This document shows, one piece after another, positions 7,187 through 31,367 of a stretch of DNA of 32,728 bases. The position numbers and the translations under genes are program-made. Source of the stretch: a virus; the IMG/VR virus record IMGVR_UViG_3300042447_000158, positions 1 through 32,728 of that record; one strand, written 5' to 3'. Each line of letters begins with the position of its first letter. The first letter of the stretch is position 1. The notes under the pieces are model-generated. The model made no database searches. It was not told the DNA's origin and saw nothing but the letters and a program-made list of their open reading frames with translations.

Positions 7187-7231
7187 GAAAACCAACAAAC
7201 TACATATATGAAGGATCTTAAATTTATCTGT
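7187..7231 (+). repeat. Copy 1 of leader and start codons shared with the glycosyltransferase gene
   Basis: Contains AAACCAACAAACTACATAT, then ATG and codons for KDLKFIC. It aligns with 7781-7826, on the other side of the HNH endonuclease gene. Most codon differences are synonymous (CTT/TTG, AAA/AAG, TTT/TTC, TGT/TGC). Confidence 0.65.
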
Positions 7232-7798
7232 GAAGAATGGAGAAGCATCCCTGAATTTAGTGGGTATGACGTTAGTAGTTTGGGAAGAGTTAGAAGTACA
7301 GATAGATTTTCAGGTAAAAGAAGAGGGCTTGTTAAAGGGAAAGAACTAGTTCAAACACCTAACAAAAGGGGATATCCAGAAGTTAGATTGTTTAAAGACA
7401 GTAAGTCTACAGCAAAAGTAGTACACAGACTAGTTGCAAAAGCGTTTATACCAAATGATGAAAACAAATTACAAGTTAATCATATAGATGGTAATAAGCT
7501 AAATAACAAAACTAGCAATCTTGAATGGATGAATAACTCTGAAAATCAAAAACATGCTTATTCTTTAGGATTACAACCTAATAGAGCAGGTGAAGGAAAT
7601 GGTAGGTCAGTTCTTACAGATGAGAAAGTTACTACTATTAAAGAACTATATAACTCAGGAAAAACTGCAAAAGAAGTTTCTGAAATATTAGAAGTCAGTT
7701 TGTATACAGTTAGAGCAATAATAGCTGGAAAAACTTGGAAGTTTAATACAACTGATATACTAAAAAGAGATGAAAGACGTAAACCAACAACTAAATAA
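7208..7798 (+). CDS. HNH homing endonuclease (NUMOD4-HNH-HTH type)
   Basis: 196 residues. Residues 9-60 are NUMOD4-like (EEWRSIPEFSGYDVSSLGRV). About 72-110 is the HNH_3 nuclease (VHRLVAKAFIP, then NHIDGNKLNNKTSNLEW, with the catalytic His in VNHIDGNK). A C-terminal region of about 130-180 looks like a helix-turn-helix for DNA recognition (TAKEVSEILEVSLYTVRAI). The first eight residues (MKDLKFIC) are outside the family consensus and copy the start of the glycosyltransferase that follows, so this gene seems to have taken over its neighbour's start. As a family, such enzymes cut alleles that lack them and spread by repair. Confidence 0.88.
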   Translation: MKDLKFICEEWRSIPEFSGYDVSSLGRVRSTDRFSGKRRGLVKGKELVQTPNKRGYPEVRLFKDSKSTAKVVHRLVAKAFIPNDENKLQVNHIDGNKLNNKTSNLEWMNNSENQKHAYSLGLQPNRAGEGNGRSVLTDEKVTTIKELYNSGKTAKEVSEILEVSLYTVRAIIAGKTWKFNTTDILKRDERRKPTTK

Positions 7799-7826
7799 TA
7801 TGGGTAAGGATTTGAAGTTCGTATGC
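7781..7826 (+). repeat. Copy 2 of leader and start codons (glycosyltransferase 5' end)
   Basis: AAACCAACAACTAAATAAT, then ATG GGT and codons for KDLKFVC. It lies in the 3' end of the HNH gene and the 5' end of the glycosyltransferase, and is the diverged partner of 7187-7231. Confidence 0.65.
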
Positions 7827-8819
7827 TGTCAACCAGATGATATCTACTACACATGGCAGGTACATCTATGGTTGGAAAGTTTAAAGAAGCTTGGACACTC
7901 AGACAAAGCAATTGTTTTAGTGTACACACCTAGTTTCAGAGAATATAATGGTAAATGGGAGAAGATAATGGAGCTGTATCCAGAAGCAAAGTTTGCTTTC
8001 TACAAGGATACAGGAGATGTTAGTCAGTATTTAGGAGTGTATATTCCTATTCTACGTCCCTATTGCTTAATGAGATATTTCCAGGACAATCCTGATATGA
8101 TCACCAAAGCAGTGTTTTACTGTGATTGTGATGTAATCTTTACAGATAAATTTAACATTGATGAGTTTAAAGATGATGATATAAACTATCTATCTGACAC
8201 AAACAGTTATATCAATGCTTCATACTTTGATAGTAAGGTGAGAGATGTGCTTCCAGAGAAGCTTGAAGAATATAAGACTAGAGATGTTCTAGCTGAAATT
8301 ACAAGCTTGGTGGGCATCAATAGAGAAATAGCTGAAGCTAACAATGATCATTCAGGAGGAGCTCAGTATTTCTTAAAGAACATAGATTCTAACTTCTGGA
8401 AGAAGGTGATGAATGACTGTATATTAATACGTGTCTACCTTCAGAATATAAACAAACAGTTCTTTAAAGATGAGAACAAAGGGTTTCAAAGCTGGTGTGC
8501 AGATATGTGGGCTGTGCTATGGAACATTTGGCTTAGAGAACAAGAGACTAAGAACATTCCTGAATTAGAATTCTGTTGGTCTTCAGATCCAATTGAGAAA
8601 TTGGAGAGAACAACACTTCTACATAATGCAGGAATTACAGGACAACACAGTATGGGGTATCCTGCTTTCTATAAAGGAGCCTATCACACTGGTAAAGATC
8701 CTTTTAAAGATACACATTTGTATGTGGTGCACACTGATGAGAAATCTAAGAAGTATGCCAACCACTACTATGTGAAACAACTATTGGAAATTAAAAACAA
8801 ATATAATTTAAATTATTAA
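7800..8819 (+). CDS. GT-A glycosyltransferase, resembling peptidyl Ser/Hyp glycosyltransferases
   Basis: 339 residues from the ATG at 7800. An N-terminal YYTWQVHLWLESLKKLGH is followed by a metal-binding DCD (109-111, in AVFYCDCDVIFTDKF). The later part has GGAQYFLKNI and LLHNAGITG, and ends in a basic, aromatic tail. The N-terminal pattern recalls plant peptidyl-serine and hydroxyproline O-glycosyltransferases, an impression from memory. It is followed at once by two poly-Thr genes that could be its acceptors. The stop is 2 nt before the next ATG. Confidence 0.65.
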   Translation: MGKDLKFVCCQPDDIYYTWQVHLWLESLKKLGHSDKAIVLVYTPSFREYNGKWEKIMELYPEAKFAFYKDTGDVSQYLGVYIPILRPYCLMRYFQDNPDMITKAVFYCDCDVIFTDKFNIDEFKDDDINYLSDTNSYINASYFDSKVRDVLPEKLEEYKTRDVLAEITSLVGINREIAEANNDHSGGAQYFLKNIDSNFWKKVMNDCILIRVYLQNINKQFFKDENKGFQSWCADMWAVLWNIWLREQETKNIPELEFCWSSDPIEKLERTTLLHNAGITGQHSMGYPAFYKGAYHTGKDPFKDTHLYVVHTDEKSKKYANHYYVKQLLEIKNKYNLNY

Positions 8820-9698: not shown

Positions 9699-9985
9699 TG
9701 CAGATTAACAAGAAATTCTTTCCTGAGGTGATGCAAGATAACGAACTTGCTTATTTTGCTCACCTTGAAGGAATTATTGCATCAGTGGATGAGCTTTCTA
9801 CACTAGAAATAGTTAAAAATCCTCATTCTTATCATTTTAGATTGGCTGCATCTGTGCCCAAGTATAATAATATGCTGTTAGAAGAACTATTAAAATTCCA
9901 CAATCTATTTCATATCAAACTGGACCTAAGCAAGAGCATCAAAAGCTCTGCTACCATCACGTTTGAAATATCATTAGATAACTAA
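9698..9985 (+). CDS. Hypothetical protein with an end duplicated in the following endonuclease
   Basis: 95 residues, mixed alpha/beta, no membrane segment, unrecognised. The C-terminus TFEISLDN followed by stop resembles the last residues of the GIY-YIG gene that follows (KLEINLDSN), which may mark a displaced copy of this gene's 3' end. TAATG coupling to the GIY-YIG gene. Confidence 0.65.
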   Translation: MQINKKFFPEVMQDNELAYFAHLEGIIASVDELSTLEIVKNPHSYHFRLAASVPKYNNMLLEELLKFHNLFHIKLDLSKSIKSSATITFEISLDN

Positions 9986-10587
9986 TGCCTGTTATTTATA
10001 AAATATTATCTCCTTCTAATAAAGTCTACATAGGTCAAACTTGGAACTACAAAAAAAGAATGTCAGGGTATAAAAATATATCTTGTAAAAGACAGCCTAA
10101 ACTTTATAACTCTTTATTAAAATATAGTGTTGATAATCATTCATTTACAATAATTTATGAACTTCCTGAAGACATAAGTCAAGGTGTTCTTGATACATAT
10201 GAACAGTTATATATAGATCAATATAGAGACTGTGGTATACAACTAATGAATATTAGAGAAGCAGGAAGTCATGGAAAACACTCTCAAGAAAGTATTGAAA
10301 AGTTAAGAAAAGTAAACGTAGGAAGAAAATACTCTGATGAATTTAAAAAAAGAAGAAGTGAAATAATGAAAGGTAATACCCTAAGGTTAGGGTCATCTCA
10401 ATCAGAAGAAACTAAACTAAAGATGGGAAATTCTAGAAGAGGACAAGTTAGATCTGAAGAAACTAGACTCAAAATGAGAAATTCAGCCATTGGTAAAAAG
10501 AAGTCTCCAGAACATATTAGAAAAGTGGTGGAGGCAAAAAGAAGAAATAGAGAACTGAAACTTGAAATAAATTTGGATAGTAATTAA
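9985..10587 (+). CDS. GIY-YIG homing endonuclease with NUMOD3 repeats
   Basis: 200 residues. The N-terminal GIY-YIG nuclease appears as VIYKILSPSNKVYIGQTW with YIG at 15-17 and an Arg a helix later (KKRMSGY). About 95-180 carries NUMOD3-type DNA-binding repeats (HSQESIEKLRK, SEETKLKMGNS, SEETRLKMRNS, SPEHIRKVVEA). This is the phage T4 Seg-type architecture. The final nine residues are outside the family pattern and look captured from the gene before. Confidence 0.9.
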   Translation: MPVIYKILSPSNKVYIGQTWNYKKRMSGYKNISCKRQPKLYNSLLKYSVDNHSFTIIYELPEDISQGVLDTYEQLYIDQYRDCGIQLMNIREAGSHGKHSQESIEKLRKVNVGRKYSDEFKKRRSEIMKGNTLRLGSSQSEETKLKMGNSRRGQVRSEETRLKMRNSAIGKKKSPEHIRKVVEAKRRNRELKLEINLDSN

Positions 10588-18873: not shown

Positions 18874-20793
18874 TTATTGTATTTCACAAGCACCACCTCC
18901 ACAAGCTTGGATGGCACCAAAATCCACTGTATCATCAATTTCCATTACTTTAGTTAAATCAATTGTAGTTAATGAATTGATTCTTTTTTCATATTCATCT
19001 TTTGTAATGTCTTGAAAAGGTGCTTGGATATAACTTCCTCCATCATAGTTCAAAACTGACAAACCATTGTATACCTCTCTATTAATCCACATCCAACTTC
19101 CTACAGTTTCCCACTCATCTACTAATATTGGATCAGTAGTGTCATTAGCAAGATCAAAAGATCCACCATGATACATTCTACTTTTATCAATAGAAACAGT
19201 AGCACTTACGTTATGTGTGTTAGCTCCATTGATATGTCCTGCTTTGACCCATTCTGTAGAGAATCTTTTAACACGCTCTAGCGTATCAATTGCTGTCTCT
19301 GTACGTAGAATAGATCCTTCAGGGGCTTTAACAGGAATACGTACACAAACTGTATCCTTAGGACGTAACACATCATCTTCACATAGCTCAGGATGGTTAA
19401 TCTCTAAATACATAGCCATGTCTTCGCTCTTGTTAAATCTCATAGTTCTTAAGTAGTAAGGAGCATGCCATGCGTGGATACCAGATGCTGTTCCTAGGAC
19501 TAATGATGTTGTACCACTTGGTTTAATACATGTAATACGAGCTGCTTCGTTGGTACCAATCTTATCAGAAATCATACTGTTAACCACCTTAGCTGTATTG
19601 GCTGCTATTCCCAGGTCATATTTAAGGATTTCTCCTGAACCTATACCTGTCATACCAATGCCTAATAGAGCGTCTTTTTGGGTGGTCTTTTGCCAGATGG
19701 GACGTAAGTAGTGGAAGTCAAAGAATCCTGCTTGTAACGTACCAAAGAACGCTGCCACACTCACTCTGTTGTTAAGGTCTTCCTGATCTACTACATCAGA
19801 CACATTCACCTCACATAGGTTACAGAATTGAAAAGGTCTTAGACCAATTTCACAGCAAGGGTTAGTTCCCCAATCTAGGTCATTAGACCAATAGATACCT
19901 GGTTCACCACTTCCTGATGCTTCAATTCTTTTCCATAGGGCTTGGAACTCTTCTTCACTCACTTCACCTCTTTTAAGGACAGCTGAGTTATTACTTCTAC
20001 CACGTTGTTCATTAGTCTCCCACCAGTCACCATACTTACATGTAATCATTTCCTCGTCATCATGGCTAAACAAAGAGATCATAGCTGACCTTCTGATACC
20101 ACCTGCAAGTACACTGTTAGCAATATGACACATAATATCATGAGCTTCTAAAGGAGATAGCTTTTGACCATCTTCTTTACGTTCCATAACAGCATCAATA
20201 TGAGATAAGCATAACTTAAGTGGCTCAGGACCAGGAGCTTTACCTCCAGCTGTCACTAATCTAGCACCCTTGTGTCTAATAGCTCTGAAGTCAAACTTAG
20301 GCTTATAACCACCTTCAAAGTAGAACTTCATCAAAACTTTTACAGCATCAGCCCATCCCATAATAGAATCTTCAATCAGGTAGTTACGTTGCTTATATGT
20401 CTCTTGTTTCTTAATAGCTGGCAGTTGCTCTATGTGATGCTTTTGAACAGAAAAACCTACACCTGAACCTCCTAATAGGAGAAACATAGTCTCAGAGAAA
20501 CTATATAGACTGTCAACAGGTAGATAAGCACAGTTGTATCCTCTTGCATTGTTCACTTCCATTGCTGGACCAGCAAACTGAAGGGCCCTCATTGATGGTA
20601 AGACTTTCTTCTCTCTAATGAATACAGCACTTTCTACAATTGCTTGCTCTAATTTAGGATATTTCTTGATCATCATGCTTTGATACCTATCCACTATCTC
20701 ATCCCAAGTCTCTCTTCTTTTCTTTTCTGAGATGTACTTTGCATACTTGCTAAAAATTGTTATTTTGCTCAAGGCTTCTAATCCTAAATCCAT
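18874..20793 (-). CDS. nrdJ: Adenosylcobalamin-dependent (class II) ribonucleotide reductase
   Basis: 639 residues from the ATG at 20793. NARGYNCAYLPVDS carries the first reducing Cys; LLLGGSGVGFSVQ follows; NPCCEIGLRPFQFCNLCEVN holds the thiyl-radical Cys and the second reducing Cys; CIKPSGTTSLVLGTASGIH is the phosphate-binding segment; and the C-terminus ACGGGACEIQ supplies the shuttle Cys pair. It reduces ribonucleotides to deoxyribonucleotides using B12, without oxygen. The monomeric triphosphate-type enzyme is the best fit. A promoter lies 40-70 nt upstream. Confidence 0.92.
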   Translation of the reverse strand: MDLGLEALSKITIFSKYAKYISEKKRRETWDEIVDRYQSMMIKKYPKLEQAIVESAVFIREKKVLPSMRALQFAGPAMEVNNARGYNCAYLPVDSLYSFSETMFLLLGGSGVGFSVQKHHIEQLPAIKKQETYKQRNYLIEDSIMGWADAVKVLMKFYFEGGYKPKFDFRAIRHKGARLVTAGGKAPGPEPLKLCLSHIDAVMERKEDGQKLSPLEAHDIMCHIANSVLAGGIRRSAMISLFSHDDEEMITCKYGDWWETNEQRGRSNNSAVLKRGEVSEEEFQALWKRIEASGSGEPGIYWSNDLDWGTNPCCEIGLRPFQFCNLCEVNVSDVVDQEDLNNRVSVAAFFGTLQAGFFDFHYLRPIWQKTTQKDALLGIGMTGIGSGEILKYDLGIAANTAKVVNSMISDKIGTNEAARITCIKPSGTTSLVLGTASGIHAWHAPYYLRTMRFNKSEDMAMYLEINHPELCEDDVLRPKDTVCVRIPVKAPEGSILRTETAIDTLERVKRFSTEWVKAGHINGANTHNVSATVSIDKSRMYHGGSFDLANDTTDPILVDEWETVGSWMWINREVYNGLSVLNYDGGSYIQAPFQDITKDEYEKRINSLTTIDLTKVMEIDDTVDFGAIQACGGGACEIQ

Positions 20794-20831
20794 GTTTAAT
20801 TGTGTTTTTTTGGTTAAAAAATAAAGGGTTG

Positions 20832-20863
20832 CAAATGTACAACAGCTCTTCATATAAACCAAG
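20832..20863 (-). promoter_or_regulatory. Bacteroidota-type promoter for the reductase operon
   Basis: Minus strand: CTTG (20863-20860), a 20-bp spacer and TACATTTG (20839-20832). Expected transcription start is about 20828, 35 nt before the ATG at 20793. The -33 box matches three of four bases. Confidence 0.5.
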
Positions 20864-23543: not shown

Positions 23544-23787
23544 TTCCTGTTAATTTAGTAGGTGCCCATAAATAAGATAGTAGATGATATGGCCTATCAC
23601 CATACTTTGGCTCAGCAATGTATTGTCTACCTTTACATTCTGTCTTGAGCTGTTCTGGTGTAAGTATCATCACCTTACCCTTGTACTCAACCTCATAGTT
23701 CTCTTTCTTGATAATGCATTCCTTAACACTATGATCTATTAAGTCAGCATACTTCTTGTCATGAAGCTTTAGAATTGTTCTTTTCAT
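23536..23787 (-). CDS. Hypothetical protein
   Basis: 83 residues from the ATG at 23787 (MKRTILKLHDKK). Beta-rich centre (YEVEYKGKVMILTPEQLKTE) and a C-terminus with YHLLSYLWAPT. Its first 29 nt overlap the end of the HNH gene. A longer in-frame reading to 23844 is possible but falls further inside the HNH gene. Unrecognised. Confidence 0.6.
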   Translation of the reverse strand: MKRTILKLHDKKYADLIDHSVKECIIKKENYEVEYKGKVMILTPEQLKTECKGRQYIAEPKYGDRPYHLLSYLWAPTKLTGNE

Positions 23788-24184
23788 GTTTATCTGCTTT
23801 TGTTTTCTTGTCATGACATTTCTCACATAAGACTTGTAAATCATTCACTTCACAAAAAAGTCTTTCTACAAATCCTGGTAGGTCTTTTGATGAGTTAAGA
23901 CTACCTGCAGGAATAATGTGGTCTACATTAATCTTCTTTTCAATAAACCAATTCTTACACACATTGCATTGATACTCATACTTTTGTCTCTTGTTTACAC
24001 CCTTGTATAGTCTGCGTGCTTGTAGCTTACATTCTGTAATGGGTTTCCAAAATCTAGACTTCTGTCTGAGGGCACTGCGTATAAAACTCCAGAATGCTGA
24101 CTCTGTCATAGTGCCAGCACATCTTGGTTTACTAACTATTTTCCTAGGTATCTTAGAGATTCTCTTTGTTGCGTTCTTTTTCAT
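23759..24184 (-). CDS. HNH endonuclease
   Basis: 141 residues from the ATG at 24184. A basic helical N-terminus is followed by CNVCKNWFIEKKINVDHIIP (first Cys pair and DH of the HNH unit), then LQVLCEKCHDKKTKAD with the second Cys pair and final His. This is the classical zinc-stabilised HNH nuclease. Whether it is a homing enzyme is unclear; it sits alone between rIIB and a small gene, with a hairpin before it. It has the same TTAATTTAACAATT-type leader as recA. Confidence 0.85.
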   Translation of the reverse strand: MKKNATKRISKIPRKIVSKPRCAGTMTESAFWSFIRSALRQKSRFWKPITECKLQARRLYKGVNKRQKYEYQCNVCKNWFIEKKINVDHIIPAGSLNSSKDLPGFVERLFCEVNDLQVLCEKCHDKKTKADKHEKNNSKAS

Positions 24185-24199
24185 AATTGTTAAATTAAT

Positions 24200-24221
24200 C
24201 CCAGGGAACTTAATCCCTGGG
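24200..24221. promoter_or_regulatory. Perfect 8-bp inverted repeat between rIIB and the HNH gene
   Basis: CCCAGGGA (24200-24207), loop ACTTAA, TCCCTGGG (24214-24221). It lies 9 nt after the rIIB stop and 15 nt before the HNH start. There is no T-run, so an RNA stability or processing hairpin, translation block or operator is more likely than a terminator. Confidence 0.5.
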
Positions 24222-24230
24222 ACTACAAAT

Positions 24231-25751
24231 TTAATCAATTTTTACAATTCTCTTTGATATTTCTTGCTTAATTTCATCAAGACTCTTAACAATTGTATAC
24301 ACCTCTACAGCAGATAACGCTGGTAAGTTAAAGTCATATTTCTTACGCTCAGCTGTGAATCCTTCTTTAGCTTTCTCAGCCAAGTTTTGCAATTCACGAA
24401 TCGCATAAGACTCATCCAACTCTAATGTATCAAAGTCTAGGTCATGTAAAATCTCTGTTGCTTCCTCACGTGGTACAGTCATAATTGGTAAATATTCATA
24501 GCATCTACCCTTAGACTCACCAATACCTACCACCTTCATTGGATTGATAAGTACAAGCACAGATGTGTCACCACATCCTACATAATGAATCTCATCGCTA
24601 GTGAAGTGTAAGCCTTCAGCACCACAATCGTCTGTATTCCAACGACATGCATTTGGGTCCATGCTCACTGGTCTACCAATTCTGATGTCAAATGTTCTTG
24701 TGTGAGCATCTGTAAATCTATTCTCTGCTCTATTAGGAAGATCAAGATATAGTTCTGTTAAGTTACCAATCAATTCACCATATTGCTCTTCACAATGTGC
24801 ATAAACTGTACCAGAACCACTACACTCTGGACACTCACAGCTATCATCACAATCATTCCACTCATCATCACAGTCATACTCATCATCAGAAGGAACAGTT
24901 CCTGAACCATCACAATATGTACATGGCTCTAGTTCTTCAAATATAGATTTGTGAACCATTACATATTCACCATGCTTCAAGAACACAGTGTAATCATCTG
25001 GCTTCTTCTTCCATACAGCCTTCACTTTATTATATGCATTGCTTACAAACTGTACTAGTTCTGTAGAACCATGCAATGTCACTACATTCCTCAAAGCTAC
25101 AAAGAAGCCCTGTTTAGTGATACCAAATGCATTCTTCTTCAAGAAGTTAAATAGCTTATCTGCCACTTCTGCTCTTGGATTTAGACAACACCACATAAAG
25201 AATCTTTGTAAAGCAAGAAACTCATCATTATCTGTACCAAAGTTTCTACCAGTCACTTCTAAGAACTCTTCTACCAACAATGGAGGAAGACTTCTATTAA
25301 TTCCCTTTAGATAAAGGGAACCATTTTTCATCTCAAACTGATCAAGCGTAACCAAGTATTCAGCACCTCTTTGGATAGCTTTAGCTTTCTCATATTCAGC
25401 TTCAGCTTTTCTTCTTTCAGATTGTATCTCTGGAGATCCAACAAGGTTCAATAAGCAAGCTTCTGTTGTACAAGTTTTAGCTTTGGCAAAATCATCTGCA
25501 TTGGCAGGAGACTTTGTAATAATATTGCCATCATTCAATACAATAGTCAATGTATCATTAACCATTTTAATGTTTAGATAGGGCTTGACTGCTGCTGTGG
25601 TTGTTGAATGCCACATATTGTAAGAAGAAGGAGCCTGAGCCCCCTCTTCTTGTTGTTTATCTAATTGATCAAACGCTTGTTCAATCTTGTTTTCTACTAC
25701 CTTTTCAATTGTGCGTTCTATAGCACTTTTAAACCACTTTAAACTTAACAT
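24231..25751 (-). CDS. rIIB-like protein with DnaJ-type zinc-finger insert
   Basis: 506 residues (T4 rIIB is about 312). The middle (IVLNDGNIITKSPANADDF; NFGTDNDEFLALQRFFMWCC) and the C-terminal block (CGAEGLHFTSDEIHYVGCGD followed by VLVLINPMKVVGIGESKG, about 370-410) fit rIIB-like phage proteins. Between them two CxxCxGxG units lie about 30 residues apart (CTYCDGSG at about 277, CPECSGSG at about 306), separated by an Asp/Cys-rich loop, as in the zinc domain of DnaJ. It follows the rIIA-like gene by 10 nt, the same order as in T4, where the pair affects lysis inhibition and exclusion. Confidence 0.75.
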   Translation of the reverse strand: MLSLKWFKSAIERTIEKVVENKIEQAFDQLDKQQEEGAQAPSSYNMWHSTTTAAVKPYLNIKMVNDTLTIVLNDGNIITKSPANADDFAKAKTCTTEACLLNLVGSPEIQSERRKAEAEYEKAKAIQRGAEYLVTLDQFEMKNGSLYLKGINRSLPPLLVEEFLEVTGRNFGTDNDEFLALQRFFMWCCLNPRAEVADKLFNFLKKNAFGITKQGFFVALRNVVTLHGSTELVQFVSNAYNKVKAVWKKKPDDYTVFLKHGEYVMVHKSIFEELEPCTYCDGSGTVPSDDEYDCDDEWNDCDDSCECPECSGSGTVYAHCEEQYGELIGNLTELYLDLPNRAENRFTDAHTRTFDIRIGRPVSMDPNACRWNTDDCGAEGLHFTSDEIHYVGCGDTSVLVLINPMKVVGIGESKGRCYEYLPIMTVPREEATEILHDLDFDTLELDESYAIRELQNLAEKAKEGFTAERKKYDFNLPALSAVEVYTIVKSLDEIKQEISKRIVKID

Positions 25752-25761
25752 GTTTTTGTTT

Positions 25762-28119
25762 TTAAATTGTTTCTAATTCATCAATTGTGTCTTCTGTCAA
25801 TATCTCCTCCAAGGGAGCATCTTCTGTTAATATGAGCTTGTAATGCTCTAAGTTCACTTTGTGTTTATAATACTTAAATAGATCAATGATAGCTTTTACA
25901 ATACCAGAATCTGTGTTAGATCTGGTGCTATAAGTTGTTTTATCTAGCAATGTATTTAAGAATGGTAGTTTGGTAAACACTTCACAAACTTGTTTATATG
26001 TTGTATATATAGGTTCATCATATAACCTATTCTCTGTAGCATGCAATATGATTGCTTTTATAGTTTCTTGATCTGCATAACTTCTATGGTTTTTTTCATC
26101 ATAGTTTTTCAGCTCTAGCAATTTACTTGCCAGATCAGTAGAGATATCTTCCACTACATGAATTCTTCTAAATGTAGAATCCTTTTTCTCAATAAGATCA
26201 CGTATTAAGAACTCTGTTGCTATCACCTTAAATGGTTTGTTCTTACCTTCCATAAATTTATCTAATGTTATCCAGTTATGTAAATCAGCTTTTTGTAAGT
26301 TATCATGGGTTGCTTGGGCTACTAGTACAAAATTCACTAGATGATTACCACGTGACCACAACGCATCCATCTTCTTCTTATCAGCTTCTTTAGCATAAAC
26401 ATGTAACTTGTTGACTTTATGAGCATCCTCTAGCTTAAATGTTGTAGGAACAAATTTACAATATTGATCAGATAGATTAATATCCATTGGTGTACCCACC
26501 TTACCAGAGAACTCACCTTTCATTCTAACCTTCTTAGGACCCTTTACAGCTGCAATAGAAACCTTCATTCTCTTAGCTTTCTGAGCATCTTTATATGATT
26601 GTGGAATCTCAATAGCGTCTGCATCTATAAAATCCTTGGCATATAGTCCCACTACATATTGAAACTCTGTAATAAGTTGTCTCCATTGAGACTTTGGATA
26701 GCTACTAAGCTCTAAAACAGAATCATAAAACTTGCCATAATCAACAGCTCCAGTTTTGCTTCTAAGCTTAAATGGTGCCTTCTTAACAAAATAGATGTGT
26801 TTATTACCTGGCAGAATAGTTCTTAGATAGTCTTGCTTACCCTTAGGAAGTTCATGACTATAAATGTATACACCACCAAAGTTATAACCTACTAAGTCTG
26901 ACATTCTTAAATGATCATAATAGTAGCTTTTCATATTCTGAAACTTACTATTAACAAATCTATACTTAAACTTATACTCAGCAAGCATGTATTCCTTACC
27001 TTTTACAGCAAGTCTTTCTAAGTTCAATAACTTTATATTATCTAACTTAGGCTGTGCTACAGGTATACGTGAATGTTGTACAAGTCTGTCTATCTCATAC
27101 TCTGGTTGATTAGGATCATTATACCAAGGTTTCATGTACTTATTGTTTCTACCATAGAATTCCATGATGGCTTTGATATCACTCTTTGTAGTGATGGCCT
27201 CGTTGAACTTCTCCATCCATACATCAGCCACTGTAGCTATCTTCTTAAGAATAGTTTCTTTGGCTTCCTTAGTATATCTAATAGCTTCTCTATTTGGTGT
27301 AGGGAATAATCCATCACTAAGACTGAATCTCAAAGCAAATTTCATTCCTATTCTCTCAATACCAAGCTTTTCCCAGTCAATAGGATAACTTACATTGTCT
27401 AGACAAAGATGCATGTCGTTGTTAGTGGCTAAGCTAGAATATTGGAAATGCTCACTTCTATATATTGTGAAATCATTAGGAACAGTGTAACTGCCTAATG
27501 GTTCTACATCAAAATAAACATCATCAAAATAAGCTAGTTGCTCTTTAATCTTATTGTGGAATGAATGTCTGTCATAATAGTTAACAGGAACAATCACTTT
27601 TACACCATTGTCTTCTGTAGTTGGTATTTCATATAGAAGGTCAATACTGTTTGTATCTTCTCCTTCGTACATCATATACTTACGTTCCATACCACCTTTT
27701 CTACATACAAAGTAGAAACTAGAACTATAAGCTAATGGAGCCTTGAAACCAAGACCCATCATGCCTAGCTCTGTGTTACTGTCTCTTTTGGTTGACTTAC
27801 CATACTTACTGATGATGTTGCGTACATCATCTGCATCTAAGCCAATACCAAAATCCTGAACAGAAAATTCATATGTATCTGCCTGTGTGTTTCTTTTAAA
27901 TGAAACAATAATAGGTTTGTCACTTCCAGCTCTTCTGTGACTATCTAGTGCATTGGATGCACATTCTCTGATAGTAGAGCCTATTGAATCTGAATAAAGA
28001 TTCTTACTTAACATCTGCATAAGGACCTGTGCAGAATCTAAGTCTAATGACATTTTTACAGTTTCCTGTGTTTCTCCTTCTTGGAGGATGTGGGCTTCTG
28101 TCTGTTTTTCTAAAATCAT
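25762..28119 (-). CDS. rIIA-like protein with GHKL (Hsp90-type) ATPase domain
   Basis: 785 residues (T4 rIIA is about 725). The Bergerat ATP-binding fold is plain: RECASNALDSHRRAG (E52, N56, D59), DFGIGLDADDV (89-99), and GMMGLGFKAPLAYS (119-132). The long C-terminal part is helical, charged and unrecognised. T4 rIIA has the same GHKL start. Adjacent to the rIIB-like gene. The role here is probably membrane- or replication-associated, but only the ATPase fold is certain. Confidence 0.8.
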   Translation of the reverse strand: MILEKQTEAHILQEGETQETVKMSLDLDSAQVLMQMLSKNLYSDSIGSTIRECASNALDSHRRAGSDKPIIVSFKRNTQADTYEFSVQDFGIGLDADDVRNIISKYGKSTKRDSNTELGMMGLGFKAPLAYSSSFYFVCRKGGMERKYMMYEGEDTNSIDLLYEIPTTEDNGVKVIVPVNYYDRHSFHNKIKEQLAYFDDVYFDVEPLGSYTVPNDFTIYRSEHFQYSSLATNNDMHLCLDNVSYPIDWEKLGIERIGMKFALRFSLSDGLFPTPNREAIRYTKEAKETILKKIATVADVWMEKFNEAITTKSDIKAIMEFYGRNNKYMKPWYNDPNQPEYEIDRLVQHSRIPVAQPKLDNIKLLNLERLAVKGKEYMLAEYKFKYRFVNSKFQNMKSYYYDHLRMSDLVGYNFGGVYIYSHELPKGKQDYLRTILPGNKHIYFVKKAPFKLRSKTGAVDYGKFYDSVLELSSYPKSQWRQLITEFQYVVGLYAKDFIDADAIEIPQSYKDAQKAKRMKVSIAAVKGPKKVRMKGEFSGKVGTPMDINLSDQYCKFVPTTFKLEDAHKVNKLHVYAKEADKKKMDALWSRGNHLVNFVLVAQATHDNLQKADLHNWITLDKFMEGKNKPFKVIATEFLIRDLIEKKDSTFRRIHVVEDISTDLASKLLELKNYDEKNHRSYADQETIKAIILHATENRLYDEPIYTTYKQVCEVFTKLPFLNTLLDKTTYSTRSNTDSGIVKAIIDLFKYYKHKVNLEHYKLILTEDAPLEEILTEDTIDELETI

Positions 28120-30515: not shown

Positions 30516-30589
30516 TATAACAGGTTTTTTGTCTTTAAATAATTTTCTATTGCTTGTAATCCATGGACTTTGGCTAGATCAGCCCAAGT
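30515..30589 (-). pseudogene. Remnant of a second primase 3' end
   Basis: In the frame just behind the LAGLIDADG gene's end, 24 codons and a TAA encode TWADLAKVHGLQAIENYLKT then KNLL. The intact primase ends DWADLSRKYGLKIIEDILKE then KNIL: 13 of 24 identical, no gaps, stop at the same place. TGGGCTGA is identical in both, and the HEG's own TGA stop lies inside it. The remnant has no start of its own that would give a primase. It is best read as the displaced original primase end. Confidence 0.8.
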
Positions 30590-31367
30590 ATGCTTTATAC
30601 TTCTCATATTTTCTATTTAACTTAATGCAGTTATCGTCTTCATAGATATATCTACAAAACTTCAATACGTCATTTATTCTATGAATGTATATGTACCAAG
30701 AGTTTCCTCTTTTGTCTTGTTTTGTAAATACATCTATATCAAGTTGAGATTTTAAAAAATCACATAATCCTTTGCAAAAGTTTTCACTCCCAACAAAGTT
30801 TAACATTATTCTTTTTTGAGAGTTATAAATACACCCATCACCATCAAAATACCCTCTTATAAAATCTCTTATATAAGGCATTTCTGATGGGAACTTTAGC
30901 ACGAGTGATTTATTTTGAATAACTCCTAGTTTTTGAAGGTCATCAATAAGAATTTTAGAGTTTAGTTCTATTTTAGATTGAGCTTTACCAATGTAATTTG
31001 TTCCTGTAATTAGTTTTGATTTAGTATAATTCAAAGGTTTTTGACTATCTATATCTTTTTTAAACTCTTCTAAAATGTAGTCATCCTCTTTTGTAAGTTT
31101 AATTGCACAACTATTCTTCTTTGGAAAAACACATCCATCAGCATATATTAATCCTAGAAAGTATGCTTTGTTTGGAGTGTTTATTTCTTTGAAATAGTGT
31201 TCATTAAACTTATATTTCTGAGCACTAAGAACTATTCCATTTTTTCTTAAATGACTGCCAACTGTAGGATTTGATATCCCTAATTCTTCTGCTATCTGAT
31301 ATGTGTTTTTCTTCTCAACTACATATGCATGTATCATGTAGTCTATTTGTTCTTTTGTAGTTTTCAT
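30579..31367 (-). CDS. LAGLIDADG homing endonuclease with N-terminal HTH
   Basis: 262 residues. An N-terminal helix-turn-helix (TYQIAEELGISNPTVGSHLR, about 22-41) precedes the two LAGLIDADG helices: YFLGLIYADGCVF (71-78 core, catalytic Asp) and FIRGYFDGDGCIY (171-178 core). Both repeats in one chain make a monomeric enzyme. It lies between the primase and the remnant of another primase end, so its cut site is presumably the primase gene. It has its own strong promoter and is probably leaderless. Confidence 0.9.
   Translation of the reverse strand: MKTTKEQIDYMIHAYVVEKKNTYQIAEELGISNPTVGSHLRKNGIVLSAQKYKFNEHYFKEINTPNKAYFLGLIYADGCVFPKKNSCAIKLTKEDDYILEEFKKDIDSQKPLNYTKSKLITGTNYIGKAQSKIELNSKILIDDLQKLGVIQNKSLVLKFPSEMPYIRDFIRGYFDGDGCIYNSQKRIMLNFVGSENFCKGLCDFLKSQLDIDVFTKQDKRGNSWYIYIHRINDVLKFCRYIYEDDNCIKLNRKYEKYKAYLG

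Follow-up and report, generated by a model that had tools for sequence, protein, structure and literature searches.

A genuine rIIA/rIIB gene pair with a predicted Hsp90-like ATPase in rIIA and a variable acidic tip, often with a putative zinc knuckle, in rIIB

The window analyzed in this study, 32,728 nucleotides of viral DNA (IMG/VR record IMGVR_UViG_3300042447_000158), contains a genuine rIIA and a genuine rIIB gene. In the reading that we favor, with a probability slightly above one half (about 0.55), the two form a counter-exclusion pair in which rIIA would be an Hsp90-like, ATP-driven switch and rIIB a partner with a variable acidic docking tip that often carries one zinc knuckle. For seventy years, the rII locus has served as a textbook example in genetics, and rIIA and rIIB of T4 are protectors from the exclusion exerted by RexAB of lambda. 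A counter-exclusion role of rII is described for diverse phages (PMC11879866, PMC9391042). The features of the pair are as follows.

25762..28119, minus strand: rIIA homolog, 785 aa (phrog_612 RIIA, E 6.8e-58; T4 rIIA profile alignment, E 5.3e-18)
27049..28044, minus strand: predicted GHKL ATPase and transducer of rIIA, residues 26-357, with the fold of the Hsp90 N and early middle domains (AlphaFold2 model; VIA-align)
27940..27969, minus strand: N box RECASNALDS of rIIA, residues 51-60 (R51, E52, S55, N56, A57, and D59 invariant among 63 rIIAs)
27838..27855, minus strand: G1 box DFGIGL of rIIA, residues 89-94 (D89, F90, G91, G93, and L94 invariant among 63)
27745..27768, minus strand: G2 box LGMMGLGF of rIIA, residues 118-125 (G119, G122, and G124 invariant among 63)
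27286..27294, minus strand: NRE of rIIA, residues 276-278, equivalent to the SRE arginine motif of the Hsp90 middle domain (R277 in 63 of 63 rows)
24231..25751, minus strand: rIIB homolog, 506 aa (phrog_609 RIIB, E 5e-15; rIIB of phage cr116, E 2.7e-17; BFVD structural matches mostly rIIBs)
25083..25586, minus strand: N-terminal part of the rIIB core, residues 56-223 (alignment with the rIIBs of T4 and cr116)
24474..24728, minus strand: C-terminal part of the rIIB core, residues 342-426 (top-scoring phrog_609 RIIB stretch)
24720..25079, minus strand: module of ~120 residues, residues ~225-344, inserted in one loop of the rIIB core (KVVRSN/YFDCHS in T4; alignments)
24780..24950, minus strand: variable acidic hairpin tip with a putative zinc knuckle, residues 268-324 (net charge -17)
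24900..24923, minus strand: first CxxCxGxG, CTYCDGSG, residues 277-284 (C277, C280, D281, and G284 invariant in 15 close relatives)
24810..24833, minus strand: second CxxCxGxG, CPECSGSG, residues 307-314 (C307, C310, and G314 invariant in 15 close relatives)

Both open reading frames are as the first-pass annotation had given them, with 506 and 785 aa on the minus strand and 10 nt between them. Its claim that the T4 gene order is kept also holds, with rIIB directly after rIIA in the window, and in each of the 81 relatives that could be tested rIIA preceded rIIB, with both genes on one strand. The phrog_612 match spanned residues 1-742 of rIIA, and rIIB could be aligned over nearly its whole length with rIIB of the crAss phage cr116. 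The 194 aa by which rIIB exceeds rIIB of T4 (506 vs. 312) agree with the excess of about 190 residues noted before. A C-terminal block unrelated to rIIB, or a misannotated pair, was ruled out by the phrog profiles, the cr116 alignment and the BFVD structural matches, and the block comprising residues 342-426 was in fact the top-scoring part of the phrog_609 match. In RB43, rIIA and rIIB are naturally fused to a single open reading frame of 1049 aa, whose halves are homologous to rIIA and rIIB of T4 and physically linked; different from the pair of the window, it is one polypeptide and has no finger. Co-occurrence, gene order and the RB43 fusion support an intimate partnership of rIIA and rIIB, and the two proteins probably bind each other physically.

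The Hsp90/GHKL ATPase site that had been proposed for rIIA was supported, and it can now be extended to a transducer domain and an invariant SRE-type arginine. The HATPase_c profile matched rIIA with 26.5 bits, just above its cutoff of 26.4. In VIA-align comparisons, the rIIA model matched human HSP90B (8eob_B) with a Z of 16.3 over 282 residues (rmsd 4.6) and topoisomerase VI-B with a Z of 14.9, a small gap; by sequence comparison, rIIA was closer to topoisomerase VI-B (E 2.4e-7) than to TRAP1/Hsp90 (E 0.002). The arginine of the SRE-like motif was kept by all 63 aligned rIIAs, and PSRE, LSRE, ASRE or PNRE was found in the rIIAs of T4, RB43, Lacusarx, PA5oct, Beuffert, and cr116. In T4 rIIA, the arginine of this motif is R278 and the N box reads RELITN from residue 46. 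The corresponding motif of HtpG is NVSRE at R336, to which R277 was matched by eye on the sequence alignment. Thus, similar to Hsp90s such as HtpG and TRAP1, rIIA is predicted to possess the N domain and the first part of the middle domain with the SRE-type arginine. Different from these Hsp90s, however, rIIA had no match to the Hsp90 profile PF00183 at E up to 1, and its Z value was close to that for topoisomerase VI-B. Among the structural matches listed for the model, none reached past residue ~359, into the region where the client-binding rest of the middle domain and the C-terminal dimerization domain of Hsp90 would be expected. The model supports an Hsp90/GHKL ATPase architecture with transducer and middle-domain arginine, and rIIA would be expected to hydrolyze ATP.

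Similar to T4, the window has the same two genes in the same order, the GHKL motifs, the SRE-type motif and the rIIB core. The C-terminal half of its rIIA, however, does not align to rIIA of T4, and its rIIB lacks the N-terminal HTH of T4 rIIB and contains the ~120-residue loop module with the putative zinc knuckle. This module was absent from the rIIBs of T4, PA5oct, Lacusarx, and cr116, and one homolog (L107) has a short form of it without the finger. The knuckle is located at the tip of a hairpin within the module. Both of the CxxCxGxG units that had been noticed in rIIB were confirmed, at residues 277-284 and 307-314. Conservation among the 15 close relatives was 100% for each of the four Cys and for D281, G284, and G314, while the surrounding segment (residues 268-325) was only 52% identical and had many indels. 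Conservation of all Cys within such a hypervariable segment places the pair of motifs beyond chance, and a chance motif was therefore ruled out.

The motifs had also been likened to half of a DnaJ cysteine-rich domain, and a DnaJ-type knuckle fold was indeed predicted. The Cys block was modeled as four short strands in two hairpins with a pLDDT of about 86-95, but of 61 at residues 291-300. The best structural matches were BSD2 (residues 267-323, Z 4.0 over 46 residues) and DnaJA2 (Z 3.1), with a Z of 2.2 for residues 228-332 against the DnaJ cysteine-rich domain, low values for a small domain. In single-sequence searches, DnaJ_CXXCXGXG (PF00684) was not significant (13.1 bits vs. a gathering cutoff of 32.7; E 0.12), and 13 of the 15 relatives matched this family weakly. 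Anti-TRAP (PF15777) was also below threshold on rIIB of the window (17.6 bits vs. a gathering cutoff of 32). The models support a DnaJ-type fold of the Cys motifs, and the four invariant Cys suggest that the knuckle may bind zinc. Foldseek of the rIIB model against the PDB returned no match with E < 0.001, the rIIB profile found no match among PDB sequences, and the finger segment had one meaningless match (E 6) among annotated phages. An N-terminal amphipathic membrane helix in rIIB was rejected, as it was inconsistent across homologs. The SLxWFKS motif was absent from the other open reading frames of the window and from the flanks of the nine relatives checked.

The finger was present in 67 of 89 rIIB homologs and missing from 22 within its own lineage; it was also absent from the rIIBs of T4, cr116, Lacusarx, and PA5oct. 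On the tree, 9-11 gains or losses were counted, of which 6-7 were forced by supported branches, a number that recombination between phages could inflate. The median net charge of the tip was -14, compared with +3 for DnaJ, and ranged from -11 to -22 in finger-bearing members. The tip of the window has 18 acidic residues and one basic residue, and no stretch of the same length elsewhere in rIIB is as negative. In 16 of the 22 fingerless members the tip is still there, with a net charge of -10 to -16; in the other six it is trimmed to 6-12 residues. Being repeatedly gained or lost, the tip resembles a swappable docking piece and is no proof of an rII chaperone.

In the favored reading, the pair would be a bona fide rIIA/rIIB module for counter-exclusion, in a lineage of phages with a distant kinship to the crAss-like group. 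Its rIIA, built like the N and first middle domains of Hsp90, would be an ATP-driven conformational switch, with rIIB as its partner. A module of ~120 residues would have been gained in one loop of the rIIB core in this lineage, with a constant base and a tip that is the fast-evolving, strongly acidic end of a hairpin, held in about three quarters of the members by one zinc knuckle of the DnaJ/Anti-TRAP type. Rather than as a substrate-binding finger of a chaperone, the tip would serve as an interchangeable surface for docking, by which the rIIA-rIIB switch is directed to a basic partner, for instance an exclusion protein of the host or a prophage. By analogy with phages of E. coli, this lineage may suppress a Rex-like system.

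Acidic low-complexity loops can serve as neutral filler, and the tip might be a neutral or merely stabilizing decoration in which the knuckle just pins a freely drifting loop. The tip is the most variable and indel-richest portion of folded rIIB, and its near removal in six members would also fit. However, the full conservation of the four Cys in the close clade, the CxxC pairs kept in 67 of 89 members despite the surrounding drift and the strong negative charge of the 16 fingerless tips make such a neutral role unlikely.

Less probable still is that rII is a folding machine of the Hsp90/co-chaperone type, in which rIIA provides the ATPase and unfolded substrates are bound by the rIIB finger, as they are by the cysteine-rich domain of DnaJ. 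BSD2, the best solved match of the knuckle, is a DnaJ-type zinc-finger chaperone of Rubisco without a J domain, and the Hsp90-like fold and SRE-type arginine of rIIA also point this way. Nevertheless, the finger is missing from most known rIIBs, is repeatedly gained or lost, has two motifs instead of four and is acidic instead of neutral or basic, and no Hsp90 part was recognized past residue ~357 of rIIA among the structural matches listed. Moreover, the J domain (PF00226) was found neither in the window nor in 16 near-full-length relatives, with a search control that was positive in 12 of 14 genomes, and no Hsp70 gene was found in these 16 relatives. A full DnaJ-like protein (type I Hsp40) was rejected for lack of a J domain and for two CxxCxGxG motifs against the four motifs and two zinc sites of DnaJ; phage-encoded Hsp70/DnaJ partners were likewise not found in the 16 relatives. 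Thus, of the Hsp90-cochaperone-like machine suggested by the first-pass annotation, the Hsp90-like rIIA, the DnaJ-type knuckle and the partnership stand, but the step from an optional, two-motif, strongly acidic finger without J domain or Hsp70 to a chaperone does not, and the chaperone interpretation goes too far. A form with two motifs and one zinc is already known from Anti-TRAP, whose role is that of an antagonist rather than a chaperone (PMC4027176). The paired CxxCxGxG knuckle of the window is similar to those of Anti-TRAP, which has exactly these two motifs and one zinc (PMC4027176), and of DnaJ/BSD2, but it is an insert at the hairpin tip of a larger protein, is very acidic and scores below the Pfam cutoffs.

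Least likely of all, rIIB could be a DNA- or RNA-binding regulator, as proposed for T4 rIIB, with the zinc finger as its nucleic-acid-binding element: T4 rIIB has an N-terminal HTH (HTH_7, E 5.6e-5, just under the cutoff), Lacusarx rIIB a C-terminal one, a survey of jumbo phages lists rIIB as a specific transcription factor (PMC7824862) and the finger is weakly similar to Q-like antiterminator families, but rIIB of the window had no HTH match and a tip with 18 acidic residues and one basic residue is a poor surface for binding nucleic acids, though it could mimic them.

With regard to the phage lineage, the locus resembles that of cr116 (Crassvirales) in its neighborhood of primase, rIIA, rIIB, uracil-DNA glycosylase, and exonuclease. 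The rIIB of cr116 is the nearest one in the annotated phage collection; it differs in having 320 aa and no loop module. A crAss-like terminase was identified in all 16 relatives, with 22-28% identity. A BLAST search of the relatives did not find the capsid protein of cr116, so the kinship with crAss-like phages is supported by just the terminase and the order of genes. A search for the bacterial host via genome contigs gave no match.

For the rII system as a whole, the invariant Hsp90-like arginine and the transducer fold predict an ATP-driven closure of rIIA. The lineage also provides a natural experiment, in which rIIB has a tip with a zinc knuckle, an acidic tip free of zinc or almost no tip, and these variants would separate the core function of rIIB from its variable recognition part. 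Tentatively, and as a possibility that we hold well below the counter-exclusion pair itself, rII may be a minimal Hsp90-type clamp of phages, in which the exchangeable tips of rIIB, in this lineage an acidic zinc knuckle, would aim the motor of different phages at differing exclusion proteins of hosts or prophages that are remodeled or disarmed.

In the window, the two rII genes are on the same strand and only 10 nt apart:

25762-28119 (-), rIIA, 785 residues, matches to phrog_612 and HATPase_c
24231-25751 (-), rIIB, 506 residues, match to phrog_609 and profile alignment with cr116 rIIB

In profile searches, phrog_612 matched residues 1-742 of rIIA (E 6.8e-58) and phrog_609 matched rIIB (E 5e-15), which bears out the rIIA/rIIB pair proposed in the first-pass annotation; the HATPase_c score of rIIA was slightly over the Pfam cutoff. 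The rIIB of crAss phage cr116 (320 residues) aligned with a profile of the close relatives of window rIIB over residues 64 to 497 (E 2.7e-17). The rIIB relation thus extends into the C-terminal block, where the proposal had been thought open to refutation. The T4 gene order and the 10-nt gap were also confirmed, and the excess over T4 rIIB (312 residues), put at about 190 residues, was computed to be 194. Moreover, the two genes shared a strand, with rIIA upstream, in all 81 relatives with enough upstream sequence; their spacing was most commonly 10-12 nt and at most 355 nt. In RB43, a single ORF of 1049 residues comprises both proteins, its halves matching T4 rIIA and T4 rIIB.

Similar to the window, cr116 has a neighborhood of primase, rIIA, rIIB, uracil-DNA glycosylase and exonuclease. 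A cr116-like terminase was found in 16 of 16 near-full-length relatives tested (22-28% identity); the cr116 capsid protein was undetected in near-full-length relatives, and no relatives of window rIIB were found among bacterial-genome contigs. In the cr116 record (L023:2327-5533), an annotated intron-encoded endonuclease separates a short N-terminal part of rIIA from the remaining 565 aa, which suggests a crAss rIIA intron. Other ORFs of the window are:

23759-24238 (-), HNH endonuclease, TTG start, phrog_1985 (E 1.6e-23)
30579-31367 (-), LAGLIDADG-type protein with HTH, a second mobile endonuclease, upstream of rIIA, phrog_4645 (E 6.8e-52)
7208-7798 and 9985-10587, further HNH and homing endonucleases
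18874-20862 (-), ribonucleotide reductase, weak similarity to the B12-dependent (class II) insertion domain
7770-8819 (+), 349-aa ORF, strong match to phrog_4417, function unknown (E 4e-54)

There is an 8-nt overlap between the HNH ORF and the rIIB stop, and this ORF is possibly a homing endonuclease lodged behind rIIB.

The Hsp90/GHKL ATP site claimed for rIIA was upheld. Residues E52, N56, D59, D89, G91, G93, G119, G122 and G124 were invariant among 63 aligned rIIAs, and in the predicted structure (mean pLDDT 81; ATP lid, residues 107-123, poorly modeled) residues 26-357 matched the N domain and first part of the middle domain of Hsp90 (Z 16.3). Of the 50 structural matches listed, 49 were of the Hsp90 family and the remaining one was topoisomerase VI-B (Z 14.9). 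By sequence profile, topoisomerase VI-B (E 2.4e-7) was closer than TRAP1 (E 0.002). Each rIIA examined, however, contained exactly one [S/N]RE tripeptide, in a context shared by all, and R277 of the window NRE (residues 276-278) was Arg in 63 of 63 aligned sequences.

Context of the [S/N]RE motif in rIIAs and its HtpG counterpart
Window: DGLFPTPNREAI
T4: GSLDIAPSREAL
RB43: GSLDFMPSREEL
Lacusarx: GAIDFDLSRERL
PA5oct: GELDVSASREEL
cr116: GEISITPNRESI
Beuffert: GDVSFTPSREAL
HtpG, at R336: SDLPLNVSREIL

The Hsp90 arginine (R380 in yeast) contacts the ATP phosphates or stabilizes the closed state, in contrast to the transducer lysine of gyrase B, MutL and topoisomerase VI. Because this motif tips the balance, rIIA is judged to be nearer to Hsp90 than to topoisomerase VI-B. 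The GHKL domain and variable C-terminus of rIIA were published previously (PMC7824862); our literature search found no description of an SRE-type arginine in rIIA or of an Hsp90 link beyond GHKL.

Alignment showed window rIIB to be a T4-type core broken at one loop by about 120 residues (T4 KVVRSN-YFDCHS vs. window RNVVTLHG...NRFTDAHT). The base of this inserted module, which comprises a helix, a KVKAVWKKxPxxYxV hairpin and LYLDLPNRxEN, was conserved. Residues 268-325 were the least conserved of folded rIIB (52% identity among close relatives vs. 74-92% for other folded blocks), and yet their four Cys, G284 and G314 were invariant among close relatives. By pattern scoring, the full CxxCxGxG was kept in the first unit of 56 and the second unit of 60 of 66 finger-bearing homologs. 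The motif-to-motif length ranged from 16 to 40 residues (mode 28), a range that includes the 30 residues found for adjacent motifs of E. coli DnaJ. In the rIIB model (mean pLDDT 82), the finger formed four short strands in two hairpins, for which VIA-align returned BSD2 (6ekb, Z 4.0; 8ilb, Z 2.9) and DnaJA2 (7zhs, Z 3.1); residues 228-332 matched the DnaJ cysteine-rich domain (1exk, Z 2.2). Such low Z scores, expected for a domain of ~45 residues, support but do not prove a DnaJ-type fold. At the N-terminus of rIIB (25700-25751, -), where T4 rIIB has a helix-turn-helix, SLxWFKS was near-invariant; the region had no consistent amphipathic helix, and the motif was absent from other ORFs checked.

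The predicted finger thus resembles half of a DnaJ cysteine-rich domain in fold, as first proposed, but this likeness does not support the hint of chaperone function drawn from it: Anti-TRAP, an antagonist of an RNA-binding protein, also has two motifs, with one zinc held by its four Cys (PMC4027176). With four Cys invariant among close relatives, the rIIB finger would probably bind zinc as well. It is possible that rII is a chaperone, but the finger must then be accessory, since T4 rII works without it. Searches for J domains found none in the window, and neither a J-domain gene nor an Hsp70 gene was found in 16 near-full-length relatives.

Among 89 distinct rIIBs of the lineage (window plus IMG/VR relatives), paired CxxC was present in 67 and absent from 22. 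On a tree from which the tip columns had been excluded, presence and absence required 9-11 changes, 6-7 of them forced by supported branches, although recombination could inflate these numbers. In fingerless rIIBs, either an acidic loop replaces the finger (e.g., VEGEEWYDEDIEDYVTSEDEE) or the hairpin is trimmed to 6-12 residues (L107, L157, L162, L167, L174 and L176). The tip (residues 268-324 in window rIIB) had a net charge between -11 and -22 where it bears the finger and between -10 and -16 in the 16 members that have a tip without a finger, and it was the most negative stretch of its length in 65 of 67 finger-bearing rIIBs; the E. coli DnaJ cysteine-rich core, different from these, has a net charge of +3. 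Thus, an acidic projecting tip is kept more than the zinc knuckle. This speaks in favor of docking to a basic partner, and against both direct contact with nucleic acids and a substrate groove like that of DnaJ.

On E. coli expressing RexAB, but not otherwise, T4, N4, SUSP1, EdH4 and MM02 depend for full plating efficiency on their rIIA/rIIB, which are divergent (<40% identity) (PMC11879866), and T4 mutants with rII deleted fail to grow on lambda lysogens (PMC9391042). Based on homology, gene order, fold predictions, motif conservation and the optional, acidic tip, we propose that rIIA may be an ATP-driven switch of Hsp90 architecture that would hydrolyze ATP and form a complex with rIIB as its partner, and that the loop module of rIIB may serve as a variable recognition element.
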